Assembly (NCBI GenBank): GCA_026391995.1
Contig: JAPLCY010000340.1
Span: 1-21,807 of the forward strand
Direction: 5' to 3'
DNA length: 21,807 bases
Source: Candidatus Auribacterota bacterium
GTDB lineage: Bacteria > Auribacterota > Tritonobacteria > UBA1439
The notes under the pieces were generated by a model that was not told the origin of the DNA, did not search any database, and saw only the letters and a program-made list of their open reading frames with translations. The position numbers and the translations under genes were made by a program. The number at the start of each line of letters is the position of its first letter. Position 1 is the first letter of the stretch. Shown here piece after piece: positions 7,333 through 17,725 of this stretch.

Positions 7333-7959
7333 TTAATGCCCGCCGAAGCTGAAGCCGCTTCCCCCGCCGGATGACGTTGTGGTGGAAGCCGTTCCGCTTG
7401 TGCCCTCGGATACGGGGGCGAAGGGAGAAGAGGGAGCGGTGCCCGGCGAAGAGGCCGTTCCCGGACTCTTTGATCCGCTGGCCTTGGAGCGGTCGCTCCG
7501 CTCCTTGGCCCGATCCTCGGAGCGCTTCTTCCGCTCATCCACGCCGCGTTTCTTGGTGGTTTTGCCCGCCTGCTGGCCGGGGCGCCTCGTGCCGGGGCGA
7601 ATACCTCCTGGTCCCCTCGCGGTTTTGGGCCCCGGGGCGCTGCCGCTGTAGTAGACCGGATCAAAACTGCGTCCGGGATTGTGGACGCCGCCCTGCTGGA
7701 ACACCGTGCGGTTCTCCGTCTCGGTCCCCTTCCGTATCGACTCGATTGTGCCCCTGTTGAGGAAGGTGGTGACGACCTTGCCGCGGTGCGGCATCCGTAC
7801 CTTCACAAGGTCTTTCATCTCCTTTATCACCACGCACGTGATGGTGTTGCCGTTCCTGAGCGTGATGGTGTCGGAGAAGGCGGTGAGGGCGAGCGCGCAC
7901 AGGGAGAGCGCGACAATAACGACCGTTGCCGAAGATCTGTGATAGCGCGCCGCGAGCAT
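7333..7959 (-). CDS. Secreted SH3-like protein with low-complexity tail
   Basis: A 208-aa protein of unknown function. A signal peptide (hydrophobic VVIVALSLCALALTAF, residues 12-27) is followed by a small domain, DTITLRNGNTITCVVIKEMK to TTFLNRGTIESIRKG (about 30-75). This has the D-I-x-L-x-N-G ... V-x-V pattern common in small exported proteins of PVC-type and related bacteria. The remaining 130 residues are disordered: a basic KKRGVDERKKRSEDRAKERS stretch and a Ser/Gly/Thr/Pro-rich end finishing SGFSFGGH. ATG at 7959 is chosen over GTG at 7971 because GGAGGTGAG lies immediately upstream with 5-nt spacing from GGAGG. It is convergent with mtnP. Confidence 0.7.
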   Translation of the reverse strand: MLAARYHRSSATVVIVALSLCALALTAFSDTITLRNGNTITCVVIKEMKDLVKVRMPHRGKVVTTFLNRGTIESIRKGTETENRTVFQQGGVHNPGRSFDPVYYSGSAPGPKTARGPGGIRPGTRRPGQQAGKTTKKRGVDERKKRSEDRAKERSDRSKASGSKSPGTASSPGTAPSSPFAPVSEGTSGTASTTTSSGGGSGFSFGGH

Positions 7960-8018
7960 TCTCACCTCCACTAATAGTATAGCATAGGAGTGAGGGGACC
8001 GGTAATGACAATTGGTGA

Positions 8019-8048
8019 TTGAAATGCCGTGCCGACGTTTTGTATAAT
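8019..8048 (+). promoter_or_regulatory. Promoter of the nucleotidyltransferase-like gene triplet
   Basis: TTGAAA (8019-8024) is followed by 18 nt and a perfect TATAAT (8043-8048), about 65 nt upstream of the ATG at 8115. This suggests the three paralogues and probably the TIGR04073 gene form one housekeeping-sigma transcription unit. The leader is AT-richer than the genes. No operator was recognised. Confidence 0.65.
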
Positions 8049-8114
8049 AACACGCTTCATCAAAGGCGTGTGGCCTGAGGTGAGGCTTTTTCTCTTTATG
8101 GGTATGGACGGTAC

Positions 8115-9152
8115 ATGATGAAAGCCGATCAGTTCGACCGGATCATTGGCGAGTACGTGGTGCCGATCGCGGAGCTCACCGACGGCGCCGGCGACGCCTT
8201 CTACTTCCTGCGCAAGAACGGGAGCTTTGTCTTCACGCAGGGGTACGCGCATCCGGCGGGTGGCATTTATTGCAAGATCATCTATTTTCCCGAGCGCGGG
8301 GGATGGGTGAATATCCACGGGCGTGAGTACAACACGACCATCAAGCGCGTCGTGAACGGCGCGCTCGAACTGGTGCCGCACGATGAGCAGCTCCGCAGGC
8401 ACTACGAGATCGACCCGACCCTCGACCCGAAGGAAAAGATCCCCTGCTGGGCAGAGTATCACGTGAGGCTTCCCCTCTCCGACTTCATCGGTTACTTTGA
8501 CCACCGCAAGTCGCTTCGCAGGGCGATGGTCATGTACCCGCAGGTCGCCGAGGCGGTGAACCGCGCGAGCGAGATCCTCGAGGTCCCGATCGGCCAGCTC
8601 GGCTGCACCGGGTCGCTCTCCTACGGGCGTTTGGAGGAGCCGGCCGATGACATCGACCTCTGCATCTACGGGACCCTGGCGGAGAACAAAAAGGTGATCG
8701 AGCGGATTTACAGGCTCACCCGGGAGCCGGCGCGGAGGGTGGTCGAGTTCAGCAAGTTCTGGCCGATGCGTTTCTACCACGGCCCGCTCATGATATGCCC
8801 CTTCTTTGAATATCTCGATCCTGATGAGATACCGCTCAAGGAGCTCGAGACGGAAATTCTCCGTGAGAACGTGAAGGCAACGGGGCGCGTCAAGGACGAC
8901 ACGCACGGCATCTACATGCCGGTGGTGCTCACGCTCGAGAGGGTGACGATCGGCGGCGAGCCGCACGCCGATCTGCCGCTCATCATCTACGACGGATCGC
9001 TGCGGGGCGAATTCGCGAAAGGCGACTCGGTCATCCTCAACCGTGCGCGGCTGGTCAGGGTTCGGGAGCGGGGGAAGACGTTCACGGCCCTCATGGTCAC
9101 CCTCAGCCCTCAGATCAGCAAGGATGTTCCGGCGCGCCCGGACGCGCGTTAG
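8115..9152 (+). CDS. Nucleotidyltransferase-like protein, paralogue 1 of 3
   Basis: A 345-aa protein with three regions. N-terminal (1-110): YFLRKNGSFVFTQGYAHP, KIIYFPERGGWVNIHGREY and TTIKR. Central (120-245): FIGYFDHRKSLRRAM, then LGCTGSLSYGRLEEPADDI, a Pol-beta-type nucleotidyltransferase signature (G-S plus D-x-D in DDIDL), then FSKFWPMRFYHGPLMICPFF. C-terminal (265-335): LPLIIYDGSLRGEF, GDSVILNRARLVRVRER, probably a small beta-barrel. The architecture resembles archaeal 'DNA polymerase beta domain' proteins of unknown function. Where those carry a third acidic residue, this protein has Cys-Pro-Phe-Phe, so catalysis is uncertain. First gene after the promoter; the next follows after 6 nt. 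The substrate is unknown. Confidence 0.75.
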   Translation: MMKADQFDRIIGEYVVPIAELTDGAGDAFYFLRKNGSFVFTQGYAHPAGGIYCKIIYFPERGGWVNIHGREYNTTIKRVVNGALELVPHDEQLRRHYEIDPTLDPKEKIPCWAEYHVRLPLSDFIGYFDHRKSLRRAMVMYPQVAEAVNRASEILEVPIGQLGCTGSLSYGRLEEPADDIDLCIYGTLAENKKVIERIYRLTREPARRVVEFSKFWPMRFYHGPLMICPFFEYLDPDEIPLKELETEILRENVKATGRVKDDTHGIYMPVVLTLERVTIGGEPHADLPLIIYDGSLRGEFAKGDSVILNRARLVRVRERGKTFTALMVTLSPQISKDVPARPDAR

Positions 9153-9158
9153 GGAGCG

Positions 9159-10187
9159 ATGCGGGACCAGATGAGCGATAGATTCCTCGACGTGATCAAC
9201 CGGTACCTGCTCCCGATGGAGCGCCTCGAGCGCGTCATCGACTCGAGCTACTTCCTCCGGGCGAATCTGAGCTTCGCCTTCGCCCAGGGGTATTGCCATC
9301 CCCCCGACGGCTTTTACGGGAAGATGATCAACTACCCGGACCCCGGCGGGGCGCTCGATATCTTCGGGCGGCGCTATGCCAACACGAACAAACGCCGCCG
9401 CGGGAACGGCCTCGAATTGATTCCCATCGACGAGCAACTCGAGCTTCACTATAGCGTGGAACCCGCGCTGAAGCGCCGCGAGGGAATGCCGCCGTTCGCG
9501 GAGTACCATGTCCGTTTCCCGCTGAGCGGCTGCACCGGTTACTTCGATCACCGTCACTCGCTCCGCACGGCGATGGAGACGCATCCCCTGCTCCAGAAAA
9601 GGGTCCCGGCAATCGCCTCGTTTCTCGAGCTGCCGCAGGAGCGGCTTGGCGTGACCGGCTCGCTCTCCTACGGAAGGCTCGAGGACGAGGACGACGACAT
9701 CGATCTCGCCGTCTATGTGACGGTCGATGAGCAGTGGCAGATCGCCCGCCGGATCAGGGATCTGGTGAAGCGGCCGGAGCATCAGGTCATCGAGTTCGGC
9801 AAGTTCTGGCCGATGCGTTTCTTCTACGACGGCACACTCATCTGTCCGTTCTTCATATATGCTGACCCCGGTGAGATACCGCTGGCGTCAATGACAATGG
9901 AGACGATCGCGGAGCCGCAGCCGTTCAGCGGGCGCGTGTGCGACGACCGGCATGGCGCGTTTCTCCCGATACTCCTCGAACTTGAGAGGGTGCAGGTCGG
10001 CCCGGAACGGGTGGATCGGATCCAGCTCATCATCTACGACAGCTCCGTGCGGGGCGAATATGTTTCCGGCGACGTGATCACCGGGACCGCCAGGCTTGTG
10101 CGCGTGACAACGCCCGCGAACACGTACCGGGCGTTGCTGGTGACCACGGGAACGGCAATCAGCGGGGGCGGCCGCCGGCGGGGGTAG
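9159..10187 (+). CDS. Nucleotidyltransferase-like protein, paralogue 2 of 3
   Basis: 342 aa, with the same domain order as its neighbours. Seen: YFLRANLSFAFAQGYCHP and NYPDPGGALDIFGRRYANT (N-terminal), CTGYFDHRHSLRTAM, LGVTGSLSYGRLEDEDDDI (signature with D-x-D in DDIDL), FGKFWPMRFFYDGTLICPFF, and IQLIIYDSSVRGEYVSGD then TARLVRV (C-terminal). Over the central 125 residues it is about half identical to paralogue 1, so the duplication is old and both copies have been kept. The start is uncertain: ATG at 9159 has GGGAG only 2 nt away, while ATG at 9171 (MSDRFLDVINRY) aligns equally well with the neighbours. The tail is short and basic. It would act with its paralogues, perhaps as subunits of one complex; this is inference. 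Confidence 0.75.
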   Translation: MRDQMSDRFLDVINRYLLPMERLERVIDSSYFLRANLSFAFAQGYCHPPDGFYGKMINYPDPGGALDIFGRRYANTNKRRRGNGLELIPIDEQLELHYSVEPALKRREGMPPFAEYHVRFPLSGCTGYFDHRHSLRTAMETHPLLQKRVPAIASFLELPQERLGVTGSLSYGRLEDEDDDIDLAVYVTVDEQWQIARRIRDLVKRPEHQVIEFGKFWPMRFFYDGTLICPFFIYADPGEIPLASMTMETIAEPQPFSGRVCDDRHGAFLPILLELERVQVGPERVDRIQLIIYDSSVRGEYVSGDVITGTARLVRVTTPANTYRALLVTTGTAISGGGRRRG

Positions 10188-10243
10188 GCGCGCCGCGGTG
10201 CGGGTCTATGAGCAGCGTGTACAGGGACAATCGGAGGAAAGAC

Positions 10244-11254
10244 GTGGAAACAAGGTATCCCAACTTCTGGAAAACCATCGACGAGTACATCGCCCCGATG
10301 GAGCAGCTCCACCGCAAGATATGGGATTCGACCTACTTCATGCGGAACGATGACAGCCTCGTGTTCTGCGAGGGGTATTGCCATCCCCGGAAAGGGCTCT
10401 GGGGGAAGATCATCTACTACCCCCGCGAGGAGGGTGACGTGAGCATTCATGGCCGCCCCTACGAGTGCATCACCAAGAGGCTCATCGATGATGAGATGAT
10501 CTATATCACGCACCCGGCGCAGATTGCCCGGCAATGCGAGATCGATCCGAGCCTCGACCGGGTGCGCCCCCCCTACGCGGAGTACGAGCTCGAATTCCCG
10601 TTTGAGCAGTTTGTCGGGCACTTTGATTGCCGCAAGTCGCTCCGCATCGCCATGGGGCACTACCCGCGAATCGACGCCGCGGCGCGCCAGGTCTCGGAAG
10701 TCCTGGAGGTACCGATCAAGCGGATGGGGGTGACCGGTTCGCTCGCGTATGGCGTGTACGATCCGCACGACGAGGATTTCGACGTCGTCTTCTTCGGTAC
10801 GGTTGAGGAGAACCGGCGGGTCGTGGAAAGAATTTATGACATCACCCGGGATCCGTCGCATCAAGTTATCGAGTACAACAAGCTCTGGCCGATGCGGTTT
10901 CACCACAACGGCGTGCTTGTCTGTCCGTTCTTTGTGTATTCGGAGTGGGGGGAGGTGCCGCTGAAGGATTTCCGCGTGGAGCTCATCAAGGAGAAGATTC
11001 GCGCGACGGCGCGGGTGTGCGAGGACCGGCACGCGATCTACATGCCGGCGTTCCTCCAGCTCGACCAGCTGGTCGTCGACGGCGAACGCCGCTCCCCGAT
11101 GCCGCTGATCATCTACGACGGCGCGCTCCGCGGCGATTTCAAAAAGGGCGATGAGATTCGCACGAGCGGAATGCTTGTCCGGGTCAGCCAGGGGCGCGAG
11201 GAGTTCGAGGCGGTCCTGGTGAACCTCTATAATCAAATCCGAAAGGTGAAGTGA
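10244..11254 (+). CDS. Nucleotidyltransferase-like protein, paralogue 3 of 3
   Basis: 336 aa from GTG at 10244. This start is preferred over ATG at 10208 because GGAGG (10233-10237) lies 6 nt upstream and the product then aligns end to end with its paralogues. Seen: YFMRNDDSLVFCEGYCHP, KIIYYPREEGDVSIHGRPY, FVGHFDCRKSLRIAM, MGVTGSLAYGVYDPHDEDF (signature with D-x-D in EDFDV), YNKLWPMRFHHNGVLVCPFF, and MPLIIYDGALRGDFKKGD. It is the most divergent copy: its D-x-D sits in a less canonical EDFDV, but the G-S and both Asp are kept. All three share the Cys-Pro-Phe-Phe in place of the third acid. The TIGR04073 gene starts 28 nt downstream. Function unknown. Confidence 0.75.
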   Translation: METRYPNFWKTIDEYIAPMEQLHRKIWDSTYFMRNDDSLVFCEGYCHPRKGLWGKIIYYPREEGDVSIHGRPYECITKRLIDDEMIYITHPAQIARQCEIDPSLDRVRPPYAEYELEFPFEQFVGHFDCRKSLRIAMGHYPRIDAAARQVSEVLEVPIKRMGVTGSLAYGVYDPHDEDFDVVFFGTVEENRRVVERIYDITRDPSHQVIEYNKLWPMRFHHNGVLVCPFFVYSEWGEVPLKDFRVELIKEKIRATARVCEDRHAIYMPAFLQLDQLVVDGERRSPMPLIIYDGALRGDFKKGDEIRTSGMLVRVSQGREEFEAVLVNLYNQIRKVK

Positions 11255-11282
11255 CGGCCCTACGCGGGGCAGGGAGGGAGTG

Positions 11283-11633
11283 ATGAAGGCATGGATCGTG
11301 ATGGCGGCACTGGCCGCCGCGGGGGCGGCATGGGGTGGCGAACCCGCGCCTGAGGCGCAGGCACCCCGGGAGAAATCCGTCCCGGAATCATATTCCCATC
11401 AGGCGGGCAAAAAATTGGCGCGGGGCGGAACCAACATGGCGCGCTCCGTGACCGAGTTTTATGTCCAGCCAATGGAGGCGAAAAGGGCCAGCGGCAAGAG
11501 TATCTCCATGCTCTGGCCGGGGATGGGCGAGGGGATGGGGATGTTCCTCACGAGGGTGTTTGGGGGAATGCTCGAGGTCGTCAGCTTTGCCGTGCCGTTT
11601 CCCAACGGCTGGCAGCCGCTGCTCGACGAATAA
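11283..11633 (+). CDS. Exosortase-system-associated protein, TIGR04073-like
   Basis: A 116-aa exported protein. A short signal peptide (MKAWIVMAALAAAGAAWGG) is followed by a Pro/Ala linker and the core from about residue 42: GKKLARGGTNMARSVTEFYV, KSISMLWPGMGEGMGMFLTR, VFGGMLEVVSFAVPFPNG, WQPLLDE. This matches the TIGR04073 pattern (K-L-x-R-G ... G-x-G ... R-x-x-x-G-x-x-E-x-x-x-F-x-x-P-x-P). The family occurs in genomes with exosortase/PEP-CTERM-type sorting; its molecular role is not known. ATG at 11283 has AGGGAGGGAG just upstream. It lies 28 nt after the nucleotidyltransferase triplet, so co-transcription is likely. A perfect palindrome follows the stop codon. Confidence 0.75.
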   Translation: MKAWIVMAALAAAGAAWGGEPAPEAQAPREKSVPESYSHQAGKKLARGGTNMARSVTEFYVQPMEAKRASGKSISMLWPGMGEGMGMFLTRVFGGMLEVVSFAVPFPNGWQPLLDE

Positions 11634-11641
11634 CTCCCGTC

Positions 11642-11706
11642 CTGGGGTCAAATCTTTATCCTTGACAGTTCTGGTTCAATTGTCAAGGATAAAGATTTGA
11701 CCCCAG
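11642..11706. repeat. Perfect 26-bp inverted repeat (REP/MITE-like palindrome)
   Basis: Arms 11642-11667 and 11681-11706 are perfect reverse complements over 26 bp, starting CTGGGGTCAAATCTTTATCC, with a 13-nt loop. The element sits exactly between two convergent genes (TIGR04073 and alr). The GGGGTCA outer end and the long flawless stem resemble palindromes mobilised by REP-associated tyrosine (Y1) transposases. No transposase is present in the window, so it would be non-autonomous. It could also act as a bidirectional terminator or mRNA end protector, although no T run follows the stem. Confidence 0.8.
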
Positions 11707-11728
11707 TCACACATCCCCATCCTCATCC

Positions 11729-12856
11729 TCACTCGTTCAAGTAGATCCGGTGCTGGACCTGTTTTCCCATGGCGCACATCACGTCATACGGAATGGTGCT
11801 GATGAGGTCCGCGACCTCGTTGACCGTGATCTCGTTCTCCCCCTGTTTCCCGATGAGAACCGCCTCGTCGCCGACGCGCACCCCGGGGATGTGACCGACA
11901 TCGATCATCGTCTGGTCCATGGTGACGTTGCCGACGATCGGCGCCCGCTGCCCGCGCACGAGCACCTCGCCCCGGTTCGAGAGGAGGCGGCAGTAACCGT
12001 CCCCGTAGCCGATCGGGATGGTGGCGATCCTGGTATCACGGTAGGTGACATAGCTCCGGCAGTAGCTGATCGACCTCCCCTTCGGCACCTCCTTCAGGTA
12101 GCCGATCTCCGTCTTGAGCGTGAGGGCGGGCCGGATCGGGATGCTCTTGATCACCTCGCGCGACGGGTAGACGCCGTACATCATGATGCCGAGCCGCACC
12201 ATGGTAAAAAAGGAGGTGGGGAGGCCCAGGATGGCGCCGCTGTTGGCGATGTGGGTGAGGGGGGCGCGGATGCCCGCGCGCTCGCACCGGCGCAGCAGTT
12301 TTTTAAAGTGATCGAGCTGGAACTTGCTGAAGCCGAGATCCCGGTCCGCCGCGCAGGCGAAATGCGAGGAGAGTCCCTCCAGCCTGACCCCCTTCGTGCG
12401 CGCGGCACGCTTGACGAATTCAAACGCCCGTTCGTGCCAGATACCGATGCGCCCCATCCCGGTATCGACCACAATGTGTATGCCCACGCGCCGCCCCGCC
12501 TTCCGCGCCGCGGCAGCAACCGCCTCGAGCATCTCGATCGAGCAGATGACCGGCGTGACGCGGTGGCGCACGATGGCCTTCGCGTGCCCCTCCATGCCGG
12601 CGCTGAGGATGAGGATCAGCGCCTCGGGGTGGGCCTTTCTGAGCAGGAGGGCCTCGTGGATATTGGAGACGCCGAGCCAGGTCACCCCCGCCTCGAGCGC
12701 GGCGCGCGAGACCTGCGACATGCCGTGGCCGTAGGCATCGGCCTTCACCACCGCGAGGATCTTCACCCGCCGGCCGATGCGCTCACGGATACGGGCGATA
12801 TTGTCCCTCACCGCCCCGAGGTCGATCTCCGCCCAGGTTTTATAGAGTTTTTCCAT
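11729..12856 (-). CDS. alr: Alanine racemase
   Basis: A 375-aa PLP enzyme of fold type III that interconverts L- and D-alanine for peptidoglycan in the cytoplasm. Seen: TWAEIDLGAVRDNIARIR at the N-terminus; the PLP lysine in ILAVVKADAYGHG (Lys38); IVVDTGMGRIG; LSSHFACAAD; HIANSGAIL; VRLGIMMYGVYP; the SYCRSYVT region, where the second catalytic base (Tyr) is expected; and IPIGYGDGYCRLLSN with VGNVTMDQTMIDV in the C-terminal barrel. Length is normal. ATG at 12856 gives the usual family start; an in-frame GTG at 12877 would add seven residues. Neither has a strong ribosome-binding site. A TATAAT lies at 12895-12900. It is convergent with the TIGR04073 gene. Confidence 0.97.
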   Translation of the reverse strand: MEKLYKTWAEIDLGAVRDNIARIRERIGRRVKILAVVKADAYGHGMSQVSRAALEAGVTWLGVSNIHEALLLRKAHPEALILILSAGMEGHAKAIVRHRVTPVICSIEMLEAVAAAARKAGRRVGIHIVVDTGMGRIGIWHERAFEFVKRAARTKGVRLEGLSSHFACAADRDLGFSKFQLDHFKKLLRRCERAGIRAPLTHIANSGAILGLPTSFFTMVRLGIMMYGVYPSREVIKSIPIRPALTLKTEIGYLKEVPKGRSISYCRSYVTYRDTRIATIPIGYGDGYCRLLSNRGEVLVRGQRAPIVGNVTMDQTMIDVGHIPGVRVGDEAVLIGKQGENEITVNEVADLISTIPYDVMCAMGKQVQHRIYLNE

Positions 12857-15140: not shown

Positions 15141-16187
15141 TCAACCGTGGTACGCGCTGCCCCCGATGAACTCCCGCAGGAGCGAGGTGGGGGGGATGAT
15201 CGAATCGTCGCCCAGGACGCGCACCTCATCCAGGTACCGCAGGCAGCGTGCCGCCCTCCTGAAGGCGTCCTCCCTCCCGGCCTCCCGGCTGAATGTCTCC
15301 ACCGCTTCGCGCAGGCTCGCGTGCAGGTATCTTTTATGAACCGGGAGTTCATAGGCGAGATAGCCGTTCACCACGACTTCGGCGTCCTTGATGAACGGCA
15401 CGATATACTTCTTCTCGGCGGCGCGGACATAATGCCAGTGGCCGACGGTTTTTACGGGCGTGTAGTTGCGGTGCAGGCTATCGCGCACCATCCTCCGCAG
15501 CAAACGGATATCGGTCCAGGGGATATACGAGCCGGTGCGATCACACAGCTGGCAGATCGCCTCGATATAGACGCGGAACTGCACCGCCCTGGGGATCCCC
15601 TCGCTCACGCCCCGGTGAAAGGCGTGGAGCCCCTCGATTACGAGAAGCTGTCTTTCCTCCAGCTGCATCGCGAGGCGCTTTTTCTCGCGCCGGCCGGTCT
15701 TGAAGTTGTAGACCGGCACCGAGGCCTTTTTCCCGCCGATAAGCGCCGTGAGATTCCCATTGATTGTCGCGCAGTCGAGCGCTTCGGGGGTTTCGAAGTT
15801 GTAATCGCCGAGGGCGTCGCGCGGCTGGTTGGCGAGATCCCAGAAGTAGTTGTCGAGCGAGAGCATCTGGAGACTGACGCCGCGCCGTCGCAGCCCCTCG
15901 CAGAGCTTGATCGTGGTGGTGGTTTTTCCCGACGAGCTCGGCCCGGCGACGATGACAATCTGCAAGGCCTCGCGCTGCGCTGCGATCGCGTCCGCCGCCC
16001 GTCCGATCGTGTCCTCGTACGCCCGGTCGGCGTCGCGGATCAGGCCGGTGTAGCCGCCGTAGATGAGGCGGCGGTTCAACCCGGCGATGGTGTCGGCGTC
16101 GCGCATCCTGTTCCATGCCCTGGCTTTTTTCACGACCTCCAGCTCATAGAGCTCTTTCCACTGCAGCGCGCAGGCGGTATCGGTCAT
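15141..16187 (-). CDS. P-loop kinase, uridine kinase/phosphoribulokinase family
   Basis: A 348-aa cytoplasmic kinase. The Walker A motif is GPSSSGKT (82-89) after the strand LQIVIV. The URK/PRK-type SLDNYFWD follows, where Asp would be the catalytic base. Then come YNFETPEALD, VPVYNFKTGRREKKRL (substrate-binding region), and the Walker B-like LLVIEGLHAF. An N-terminal region of about 70 residues precedes the P-loop (WNRMRDADTIAGLNRRLIYG) and resembles the helical lead-in of larger bacterial 'uridine kinase' paralogues rather than Udk itself (about 210 aa). The true substrate is therefore open. Its ATG overlaps the stop of the ATP-grasp gene (ATGA, 16184-16187), implying translational coupling and a shared pathway. 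Confidence 0.82.
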   Translation of the reverse strand: MTDTACALQWKELYELEVVKKARAWNRMRDADTIAGLNRRLIYGGYTGLIRDADRAYEDTIGRAADAIAAQREALQIVIVAGPSSSGKTTTTIKLCEGLRRRGVSLQMLSLDNYFWDLANQPRDALGDYNFETPEALDCATINGNLTALIGGKKASVPVYNFKTGRREKKRLAMQLEERQLLVIEGLHAFHRGVSEGIPRAVQFRVYIEAICQLCDRTGSYIPWTDIRLLRRMVRDSLHRNYTPVKTVGHWHYVRAAEKKYIVPFIKDAEVVVNGYLAYELPVHKRYLHASLREAVETFSREAGREDAFRRAARCLRYLDEVRVLGDDSIIPPTSLLREFIGGSAYHG

Positions 16188-17725
16188 GGCGTATCCTTCA
16201 CGCGTTCTTCGCCCGGGAGCAGGCGCGGGGGACAGGGGGTGAGACCGAGCGCCGCGTAGACGCAGTCCGCGATCTCCCTCCAGCGCCGGTTCACCTGGCG
16301 CCAGTTGTCCCGTTCGACGATGCTCTCCCTGGTGATCAGGTAGCAGAGAAAGACATTGTAGTCCCCATAGCGGGGATGGCCGAGCGTGAGCCCGTCCCAG
16401 GGGACGCCGTTGGTGATCACGAACTCGTCGCTACCGCGGGTCTGCGAGAGCAGGTAGCCGTCGCGCAGCCTGGTGAGTGTTCCCCCCTCGCAGCGGTAGA
16501 TGCCGGAGGTGATGCCGCCCCGCGCCGTGAACGTCCCCTTTTCGCGGGTGTAGAGGAGGAGTGCGGAGCCCTCGAGATCGGGGAGTTCGGCGTTGTACGC
16601 CTCGATATCCCGCGGCGTGATTTCGTCGATGTTCAGCCACTCGGCCAGGTGGAAGAAGGTGAGGGGCACGGAATCCTTCATCGACTGCCAGTCGGCCAGG
16701 TACTGCGATTCGCCGACGAGGCGGGCATTCACCTCGCTGACGTAGATTTCGCGGACCCGGTTGCCCGAACCGACCGTCGAGAGAAAGTCGACGCCGAAGT
16801 TGCCGCGGTAGCCGCGCGCCCCCATCCAGGCGCCGATGCGGCGGGTGATGTCCAGGATCTCACTCCGGGCGCCGGCGTCGAACCCGTTCCGGGCGAAATC
16901 GGAGCCGATATACTGTCCCGGCGTCTTCACGAAGTACGGGTCACCCACGACCTGGATGTCGGGCTGTGAGAGGGCGACGGCGCCGTTCACCACGCAGCCG
17001 GTGCAGTTGAGGCTCGGCCCCGCGAGGAAGGGGGTTATCTTCACCTGCGTCTTGTCGAAATACGCCCCGAGCGCCGCCCTGTTCTCGGCGACGACCCGCT
17101 CGAAATCCTCCCGCGTGAACACGAAGTGCGTCCCCCCGCCCGCTTGGGAGAGGGGGATCTGGACGACGAAGCCGCCCTCGTAGTCGTCGGCCAGCTGGGC
17201 GTAGTCCAGCGCCCCGAAGAGCATGACCCGGGAGTCGGGGGGGATCGGGATGCCGATCTCGCGAGCGCTCCACGCCAGCCGCGCCTTGTAGTCGAAGAAG
17301 TTCTGGACTATGGTGGAGTTCTGCAGGAGGTGGTGGCGGCTCCCATGTGTGAAGAGGAACTCCTCCAGCCCCGGCGTGACCTGGAACGGCACGATGCAGA
17401 CATCGCCCTTCAACCCGTCCAGGGCTGCGGCGATCTCGCGGCCGTGGTCATGGTAGAAGTAGCGGTTGAAGATGCCGCTCTCGTTGTGGCGGACGCCGGT
17501 GAGCTTCTCATAGGAGAAAACGGTCGTCCCCCATTCCCCCTCGATGTAGCGCTGGACCTCCTGGCCGTAGTACTCGGCGACGATCGCCGAAACGGGGAGG
17601 AAGTGGGCGAACATGTGGGCGCCCAGGGGGCCGAGCCCCTGGTACACGAGTCGCGTGTCGCGGAACCAGCCGCGCGCCGCGATCAGTTTCTTGAGCGTGG
17701 TCAGATTGTCGAGTGGACGGGACAT
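16184..17725 (-). CDS. ATP-grasp superfamily ligase of unknown substrate
   Basis: A 513-aa protein. An N-terminal pre-ATP-grasp domain (about 20-130, with VYQGLGPLGAHMFAHF and CIVPFQVTPGLEEFL) is followed by an ATP-grasp core. Seen there: the GGFVVQIPLSQAGGGTHFVF nucleotide-binding strand-loop (184-203), VKITPFLAGPSLNCTGCVVN (228-247), and the metal-binding end RGNFGVDFLS ... IYVSEVNARLVGESQ (307-341), with Asp, Glu and Asn ligands. The C-terminal 170 residues (LYTREKGTFTARGGITSGIY and on) are not recognised. ATP-grasp ligases join a carboxylate to an amine or thiol through an acyl phosphate. It is coupled by a 4-nt overlap to the kinase downstream. The GAGG ribosome-binding site lies in the edge of the dispersed repeat. 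Confidence 0.8.
   Translation of the reverse strand: MSRPLDNLTTLKKLIAARGWFRDTRLVYQGLGPLGAHMFAHFLPVSAIVAEYYGQEVQRYIEGEWGTTVFSYEKLTGVRHNESGIFNRYFYHDHGREIAAALDGLKGDVCIVPFQVTPGLEEFLFTHGSRHHLLQNSTIVQNFFDYKARLAWSAREIGIPIPPDSRVMLFGALDYAQLADDYEGGFVVQIPLSQAGGGTHFVFTREDFERVVAENRAALGAYFDKTQVKITPFLAGPSLNCTGCVVNGAVALSQPDIQVVGDPYFVKTPGQYIGSDFARNGFDAGARSEILDITRRIGAWMGARGYRGNFGVDFLSTVGSGNRVREIYVSEVNARLVGESQYLADWQSMKDSVPLTFFHLAEWLNIDEITPRDIEAYNAELPDLEGSALLLYTREKGTFTARGGITSGIYRCEGGTLTRLRDGYLLSQTRGSDEFVITNGVPWDGLTLGHPRYGDYNVFLCYLITRESIVERDNWRQVNRRWREIADCVYAALGLTPCPPRLLPGEERVKDTP

Follow-up and report, generated by a model that had tools for sequence, protein, structure and literature searches.

What are three consecutive, clearly related genes of an unstudied kind doing in a bacterium of a candidate phylum? 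The question is raised by a stretch of 21,807 nucleotides (the window) from a Candidatus Auribacterota bacterium (GenBank assembly GCA_026391995.1), which is contig JAPLCY010000340.1 (C174) of a genome in 395 contigs that is 84% complete. A preliminary description, made from the sequence of the window, had reported a tandem triplet of nucleotidyltransferase (NTase)-like paralogues of about 340 codons each, nearly without gaps, with one shared domain order and diverged to about half identity in the core. The genes lie exactly where they had been placed: gene 1 at 8115-9152, gene 2 at 9159-10187 and gene 3 at 10208-11254, all on the forward strand, are intact, uninterrupted tandem open reading frames (ORFs) that encode 345, 342 and 348 amino acids and are separated by 6 and 20 bp. 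Their products align from end to end in the same domain order, with pairwise identities of 48% (genes 1 and 2), 44% (genes 1 and 3) and 39% (genes 2 and 3). The tandem triplet is thus real, but it is only part of a larger family, which the preliminary interpretation, supported in part, missed: this lineage-specific family consists of about nine paralogue groups, and the three genes belong to groups OG5, OG3 and OG4.

To establish the extent of this family, 44 genomes of the phylum, among them that of the window, were searched with a profile. Twelve genomes matched, with six to ten matches each, whereas the other 32 gave no match at E ≤ 0.001. In the window's genome the profile matched six places, five full-length genes and one 57-codon fragment at a contig end, in line with the incompleteness of this genome. 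Altogether 100 family ORFs were extracted from the 12 genomes, and the 98 that were long enough for a tree were divided into nine groups; two partial ORFs of genome G007 were left out of the orthogroups. OG4, OG5 and OG7 are present in all 12 genomes, OG1, OG2 and OG6 in 11, OG9 in ten, OG8 in nine and OG3 in six. G009 has three copies of OG2, and G019 has two each of OG2 and OG6, the groups being otherwise mostly single-copy. OG3 is confined to the window's family of genomes (6/6), where it is each time located between OG5 and OG4. Mean identity is 50-63% within orthogroups and 27-46% between them. Ratios of nonsynonymous to synonymous substitution rates (dN/dS) ranged from 0.09 to 0.40 in 20 orthologue comparisons from three genome pairs, and to judge from these ratios the family is kept under purifying selection. 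With six profile matches in one genome, 100 ORFs in 12 genomes and such dN/dS values, the triplet is not a product of chance. A protein-database search returned 85 relatives for gene 3 and 139 for the family profile. The bacteria named among the matches were Candidatus Aureabacteria, Candidatus Auribacterota, Euphemobacter, Tritonobacter or unplaced, and no archaeon was named in the 120 of 139 profile matches listed.

Analysis of gene order, tabulated together with the neighbouring genes, revealed adjacent paralogues in 12/12 genomes. OG5 and OG4 belong to one operon-like run in all 12, so that the outer genes of the triplet are operon mates in every family-bearing genome found, a relationship that had escaped the preliminary description. 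The run is OG5-OG3-OG4 in six genomes (the window's family), OG5-OG4-OG7 in five (two other families) and OG5-OG4 alone in one. Hence, two or three paralogues are encoded together, the third partner being variable. Measured gaps in the OG5-OG4 operons, with or without OG3, range from -4 to 57 bp, except for one of 146 bp in G019; the OG3-OG4 gap could not be measured in G022, G023 and G024 because their OG4 ORFs were called too long. A second pair, OG2-OG1, is adjacent in the ten genomes that have both genes on one contig, and the remaining orthogroups are solitary among assorted genes. Recurring neighbours are genes of nitrogen and amino-acid metabolism, namely, glutamate dehydrogenases (OG1, OG9), glutamine synthetase (OG8) and shikimate genes (OG6), and these vary between families. 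Neither the neighbour tables of the nine groups nor Pfam searches with 40 proteins representing neighbour clusters disclosed a functional partner common to the families, and the representatives of clusters c4, c32, c27 and c31 had no Pfam match at E ≤ 0.001. A 370-residue protein of cluster c4 is encoded 10-19 bp downstream of OG6 in four genomes (L070, L079, L090, L097). Two distinct glutamate dehydrogenases lie beside two NTase paralogues: OG9 comes directly after a large NAD-glutamate dehydrogenase of the same orientation (L054, L059), and OG1 precedes an ordinary one (L045, L050, L059).

The preliminary description had also pointed to a resemblance to archaeal proteins, and profile comparisons bear this out. 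Archaeal genomes were reached via 36 of 80 listed 16S loci, and the Auribacterota profile matched ORFs, most of 304-378 amino acids, in 13 of these 36 named genomes at E ≤ 1. In the reverse search, a profile made from five archaeal sequences recovered, at E ≤ 1, 100 ORFs from the Auribacterota loci, the best with E 5e-17. Alignment of the two profiles with hhalign gave a probability of 99.4% and an E-value of 7.2e-22 over 267 columns, with a gapped, unsure stretch after the DxD motif. The match runs end to end through the N-terminal domain, the NTase core and the OB domain, which makes the archaeal proteins members of the same family. Where named, they are called 'nucleotidyltransferase domain-containing protein', 'predicted nucleotidyltransferase' or 'hypothetical protein'; presumably they correspond to COG1665 ('predicted nucleotidyltransferase'), a label that was not found in the literature searched.

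Copy number differs among archaea. Halobacteriota have a match in 89/120 genomes, a single copy in 87, while 75/151 Thermoproteota genomes carry one to six copies. Among the 66 Thermoproteota genomes with matches listed, 39 have at least two copies within 600 bp and eight have three or more in a row, so that neighbouring copies, too, are shared with Auribacterota. A tree of 110 rows sets the 36 Auribacterota proteins sampled apart by a long branch (SH-aLRT 100), and the 20 euryarchaeal proteins form another group. Given this separation and the multiple copies in both Thermoproteota and Auribacterota, paralogue expansion looks independent in Bacteria and Archaea. Beyond the 12 genomes, a full-length member was found in only one of 289 genomes selected as relatives of the window: G176, from another phylum, whose protein groups with those of Thermoproteota. 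The Auribacterota family is therefore a branch apart within an uncharacterised, mainly archaeal family, from whose other members it differs in its division into about nine groups and in lacking an acid at residues 238-242; the archaeal rows are about 20 residues longer before the last core strand. Two neighbourhoods were recorded among these relatives. In G176 (L257/L297) the archaeal-like NTase-OB gene is flanked by DUF1464 and DUF447; a homologue of CitG is encoded close by, and a small gene upstream resembles FolB by eye. In five Halobacteriota loci (L237, L239, L241, L314, L316) a gene of a cluster whose representative is annotated as Sua5/TsaC (t6A tRNA modification) is directly upstream of the single NTase-OB gene.

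A model of the gene 3 product (pLDDT 95.1) predicts a three-part architecture: a family-specific N-terminal domain with GY.HP, K.I.Y.P and GR.Y motifs (residues 40-140; 10325-10627, forward strand), delimited by alignment and model; a pol-beta-type NTase core (residues 149-247); and an OB-fold domain (residues 256-348; 10973-11251, forward strand). Structure prediction thus supports the presence of an NTase fold, albeit with modest structural scores, and the C-terminal beta domain of the preliminary description is predicted to be an OB barrel, as fold searches with the model also indicate. Since searches with the whole protein were filled by matches to the OB domain, a second model was made for residues 30-254. 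Its best Foldseek matches, an archaeal CCA-adding enzyme (E 0.64) and the NF45-NF90 structure 4at7 (E 1.1), were insignificant, and CD-NTases were among the tied structural matches of the core model. By sequence, Pfam gave only weak PF01909 matches for the triplet proteins, and no solved homologue was retrieved for the third protein, the A2 profile or the archaeal profile.

The core shares its fold, GS and DxD with the pol-beta superfamily (Pol beta/mu, Cid1, poly(A) and CCA enzymes, CD-NTases; PF01909). The nucleotide- and metal-binding motifs, G177-S178 and D190-x-D192 in gene 3 (10736-10783, forward strand), are found in 97-98 of 98 members (G177 in 98; S178, D190 and D192 in 97 each), in agreement with the patterns hG[GS] and [DE]h[DE], and GS and DxD are likewise present in 76/76 archaeal and G176 rows. 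Auribacterota proteins differ from the superfamily in their N-terminal domain, their C-terminal OB domain and the expected place of the third carboxylate: residues 238-242 are free of acids in 98/98 members. Along the whole strand (236-244), 81 of the 98 have no acid and 17 have one; OG9 has Glu at 237 in 10/10. The only other core acid kept in 97/98 is E222, which may be a stand-in for the third carboxylate. C239 (10922-10924, forward strand), a Cys in 98/98, is the best candidate for the position of the third catalytic Asp. This placement rests on where the structurally aligned ranges end, namely, Pol mu 426/model 218, Pol beta 264/218, Pol lambda 497/217 and Cid1 165/215. Assuming ungapped ends, these four put the residues that we take to be the third catalytic Asp of each enzyme on model residue 210, which is C239; TdT is off by one. 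The spacing G-x-x-x-[D or C], as G-T-Y-F-D in euryarchaeal proteins and G-V-L-V-C in Auribacterota, agrees with this placement. In the archaeal and G176 rows (76, including two duplicates) the third place is occupied by Asp in 20, all of them euryarchaeal, Ser in 27, Phe in 14, Glu in five, Tyr and Thr in three each, and Val and Met in two each; Asp is present in 20/20 euryarchaeal copies examined. From these residues we infer that nucleotide binding has been retained, while activation of the acceptor has been lost or changed.

The shared promoter proposed for the triplet has a good candidate, a sigma-70-like site upstream of gene 1 (TTGAAA-18-TATAAT; 8019-8048, forward strand) that agrees with the consensus at 11/12 positions. 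The only other promoter-like site in 7900-11800 is on the reverse strand, which makes two found versus 1.0 expected in shuffles. In the remaining five leaders from the window's family, TTGACA or TTGAAA and a TAnnnT box that ends 5 nt before a hairpin can be made out by eye. OG7 in the genomes of this family seems leaderless: by eye, only about 8-13 nt separate a TATAAT-like box from the ATG (L005, L073, L078, L085, L089, L096).

The predicted operon mRNA begins with a terminator-like hairpin in all six genomes of the window's family. In the window this hairpin is GCUUCAUC...GGUGAGGC followed by a U-run (8054-8093, forward strand), attenuator-like and located where the mRNA is predicted to start. 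The OG5 leader starts with GCTTCATC five nucleotides after the -10 box, and this segment pairs with the 3' arm before the T-rich run. Pairing is kept in 48/48 cells of the 8-bp stem across the six genomes, as opposed to 33-54% when the stem is slid. Where the stem varies, it does so on one side only, without compensatory changes, and a column-shuffle control was uninformative. The 8-mer GCTTCATC is the longest common to the six leaders, compared to 4-6 for other groups and at most 5 in shuffles (0/200 as long). An RNA model built from these six leaders (R2) recovers each once at E ≤ 7.8e-9, with nothing else below E 0.045; weaker copies may have been missed, as 150 of 860-1547 candidates were scored per genome. 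Rfam had no match in the window, and the hairpin was not seen by eye in leaders of the other families. The hairpin is likely an attenuator or a 5'-end stabiliser; that it is a target of the encoded proteins would be a guess.

Downstream of the triplet, a small co-directional gene (11280-11633, forward strand) resembles TIGR04073 (40.8 bits, below the cut-off of 50), and its homologues (c23) are near the operon in 4/12 genomes. Other neighbours encode MTAP, PCMT, an LpxA-like protein and a nucleoside transporter. At its start the window carries three microcompartment shell genes on the reverse strand (210-557, 586-876 and 952-1584); the products are EutN_CcmL, BMC and a third protein that matches BMC weakly at its C-terminus. 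A 513-residue protein without a Pfam match (16187-17725, reverse strand) adjoins a uridine-kinase-like gene.

How does the family compare with described systems? The triplet had been proposed as a candidate undescribed system; it is uncharacterised as far as our searches went, but it belongs to a known fold family and is not a new kind. A description of the family was not found in the literature searched, which is not proof that there is none, and the word 'nucleotidyltransferase' does not occur within the main text of the Auribacterota paper. MntA of the MntA/HepT type VII toxin-antitoxin system has a PF01909-type core as well and gave one weak match, but the triplet proteins are of about 345 residues and MntA of about 100 (its model has 106 positions). 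That match, to the NCBIfam model, was for gene 2 (13.6 bits, E 0.046, cut-off 60), genes 1 and 3 not being listed. No HEPN family was detected among the neighbours scanned, and PADLOC-DB gave no families at E ≤ 0.1 for the three proteins. With MntA far below its cut-off and PADLOC without a match, toxin-antitoxin and defence roles, including CBASS, were rejected. A possible analogy is offered by NF45 and NF90 (DZF domain), which are degenerate NTases. They, too, would be NTase-fold paralogues paired in an RNA-binding complex; they differ in being eukaryotic, and no sequence relation was shown. The NF45-NF90 heterodimer is reported to recognise double-stranded RNA (PMC11952958).

We tentatively favour a reading, somewhat short of an even chance, in which the family forms NTP- and RNA-binding hetero-oligomers that do not add nucleotides in the usual way. 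Each protein would bind a nucleoside triphosphate (NTP) with metal through GS and DxD, and its OB domain would bind RNA or another nucleic acid. OG5 and OG4, being in one operon in every genome found to have both, would form a hetero-oligomeric core, joined by OG3 in the window's family or by OG7 in two other families. Since no acid is present at the expected place of the third carboxylate, the complex most likely does not perform usual nucleotide addition and would more likely be an NTP-gated RNA-binding or RNA-remodelling assembly, in a manner like NF45-NF90; the operon's own 5' hairpin would be a plausible target for autoregulation by attenuation. Possible, though on balance doubtful, is that the proteins are active NTases, each modifying its own RNA (e.g. 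the ends or loops of tRNA), the third carboxylate being replaced by E222, C239 or groups of the substrate. Almost invariant GS, DxD and E222, the OB domain and nine retained paralogues, which suggest several substrates, are all compatible with such activity, as are the position of archaeal relatives directly downstream of the Sua5/TsaC-cluster gene, a weakly Bud32-like kinase (39 bits, cut-off 125) beside relatives in four Thermoproteota loci and the insignificant best match to a CCA-adding enzyme. However, the acid-free segment 238-242 is shared by all 98 Auribacterota members, and the Sua5-adjoining euryarchaeal branch, which retains Asp, is the very branch that differs from them. The gene neighbourhoods could instead point to protein nucleotidylyltransferases (AMPylators or UMPylators) that tune metabolic enzymes, one target per paralogue: OG1 precedes glutamate dehydrogenase (c25) in three genomes, in two the large NAD-glutamate dehydrogenase (c21) is co-directional with OG9 and directly upstream of it, OG8 is near glutamine synthetase (c54) in three, and in another family OG9 directly follows MetW (c53) in three genomes, with an alpha/beta-hydrolase (c6) upstream in five. 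We consider this unlikely, as one and the same orthogroup has different neighbours in different families, most of them miscellaneous housekeeping genes, an OB domain would be unexpected, and MTAP, PCMT, the LpxA-like protein and the transporter yield no target.

Several observations weigh against our preferred reading. OG4, OG5 and OG7 are not clades in a quick combined tree; in the careful tree, OG5 and OG6 have support of 91/79 and 89/78. With profile A3, for which at most seven candidates were scored per genome, one more phylum genome (G018, E 2e-4) and ten out-of-phylum genomes besides G176 gave weak partial matches. Sequence aligners disagree on C239 as the counterpart of the third Asp: it falls in the archaeal column in only one of six MAFFT settings, hhalign sets it three columns off with low confidence, and another alignment places it elsewhere. 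One OG8 copy lacks D190, D192 and S178; judged by its long branch, this is most likely L091:8601-9632 (reverse strand) of G023, decaying or repurposed. Together with the incomplete active site, that copy could speak for inert relics or a selfish paralogue family without retained function, a notion which the low dN/dS, the nearly single-copy orthologues in 12 genomes and the conserved operon largely refute and which we regard as very improbable. A part in synthesis of a methanopterin-type C1 cofactor is suggested by the order DUF1464-NTase-CitG in three Thermoproteota loci and DUF1464-NTase-DUF447 with CitG in G176, genes that we assume to be linked to methanopterin. Methenyl-H4MPT cyclohydrolase (PF02289) is found in 0/44 and CitG in 2/44 phylum genomes, versus 12/44 for the NTase family, and as far as these two genes tell the role was rejected for Auribacterota as improbable in the extreme. 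The preferred reading of NTP- and RNA-binding hetero-oligomers also has a bolder form, quite unlikely as a whole, in which nine OB-armed, NTase-derived paralogues make NTP-gated RNA-binding heteromers, the Cys replacing the third Asp acts as a redox- or metal-sensitive switch or carries a covalent nucleotidyl-cysteine, and the core complex binds the 5'-terminal attenuator hairpin and controls its own operon.

Taken together, the family is real, conserved and, as far as the searches went, uncharacterised, and its mechanism is a hypothesis. In a branch of a candidate phylum, selection maintains, as far as can be judged, about nine sister genes of a single unstudied family, which belongs to a superfamily with tRNA-end, poly(A), signalling and antitoxin enzymes among its members. 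The family also comes with a built-in comparison: the euryarchaeal relatives examined have all three acids and mostly one copy, whereas the multiplied relatives are mostly acid-free at the third place. This comparison makes the question of how a nucleotidyltransferase becomes something else directly testable.

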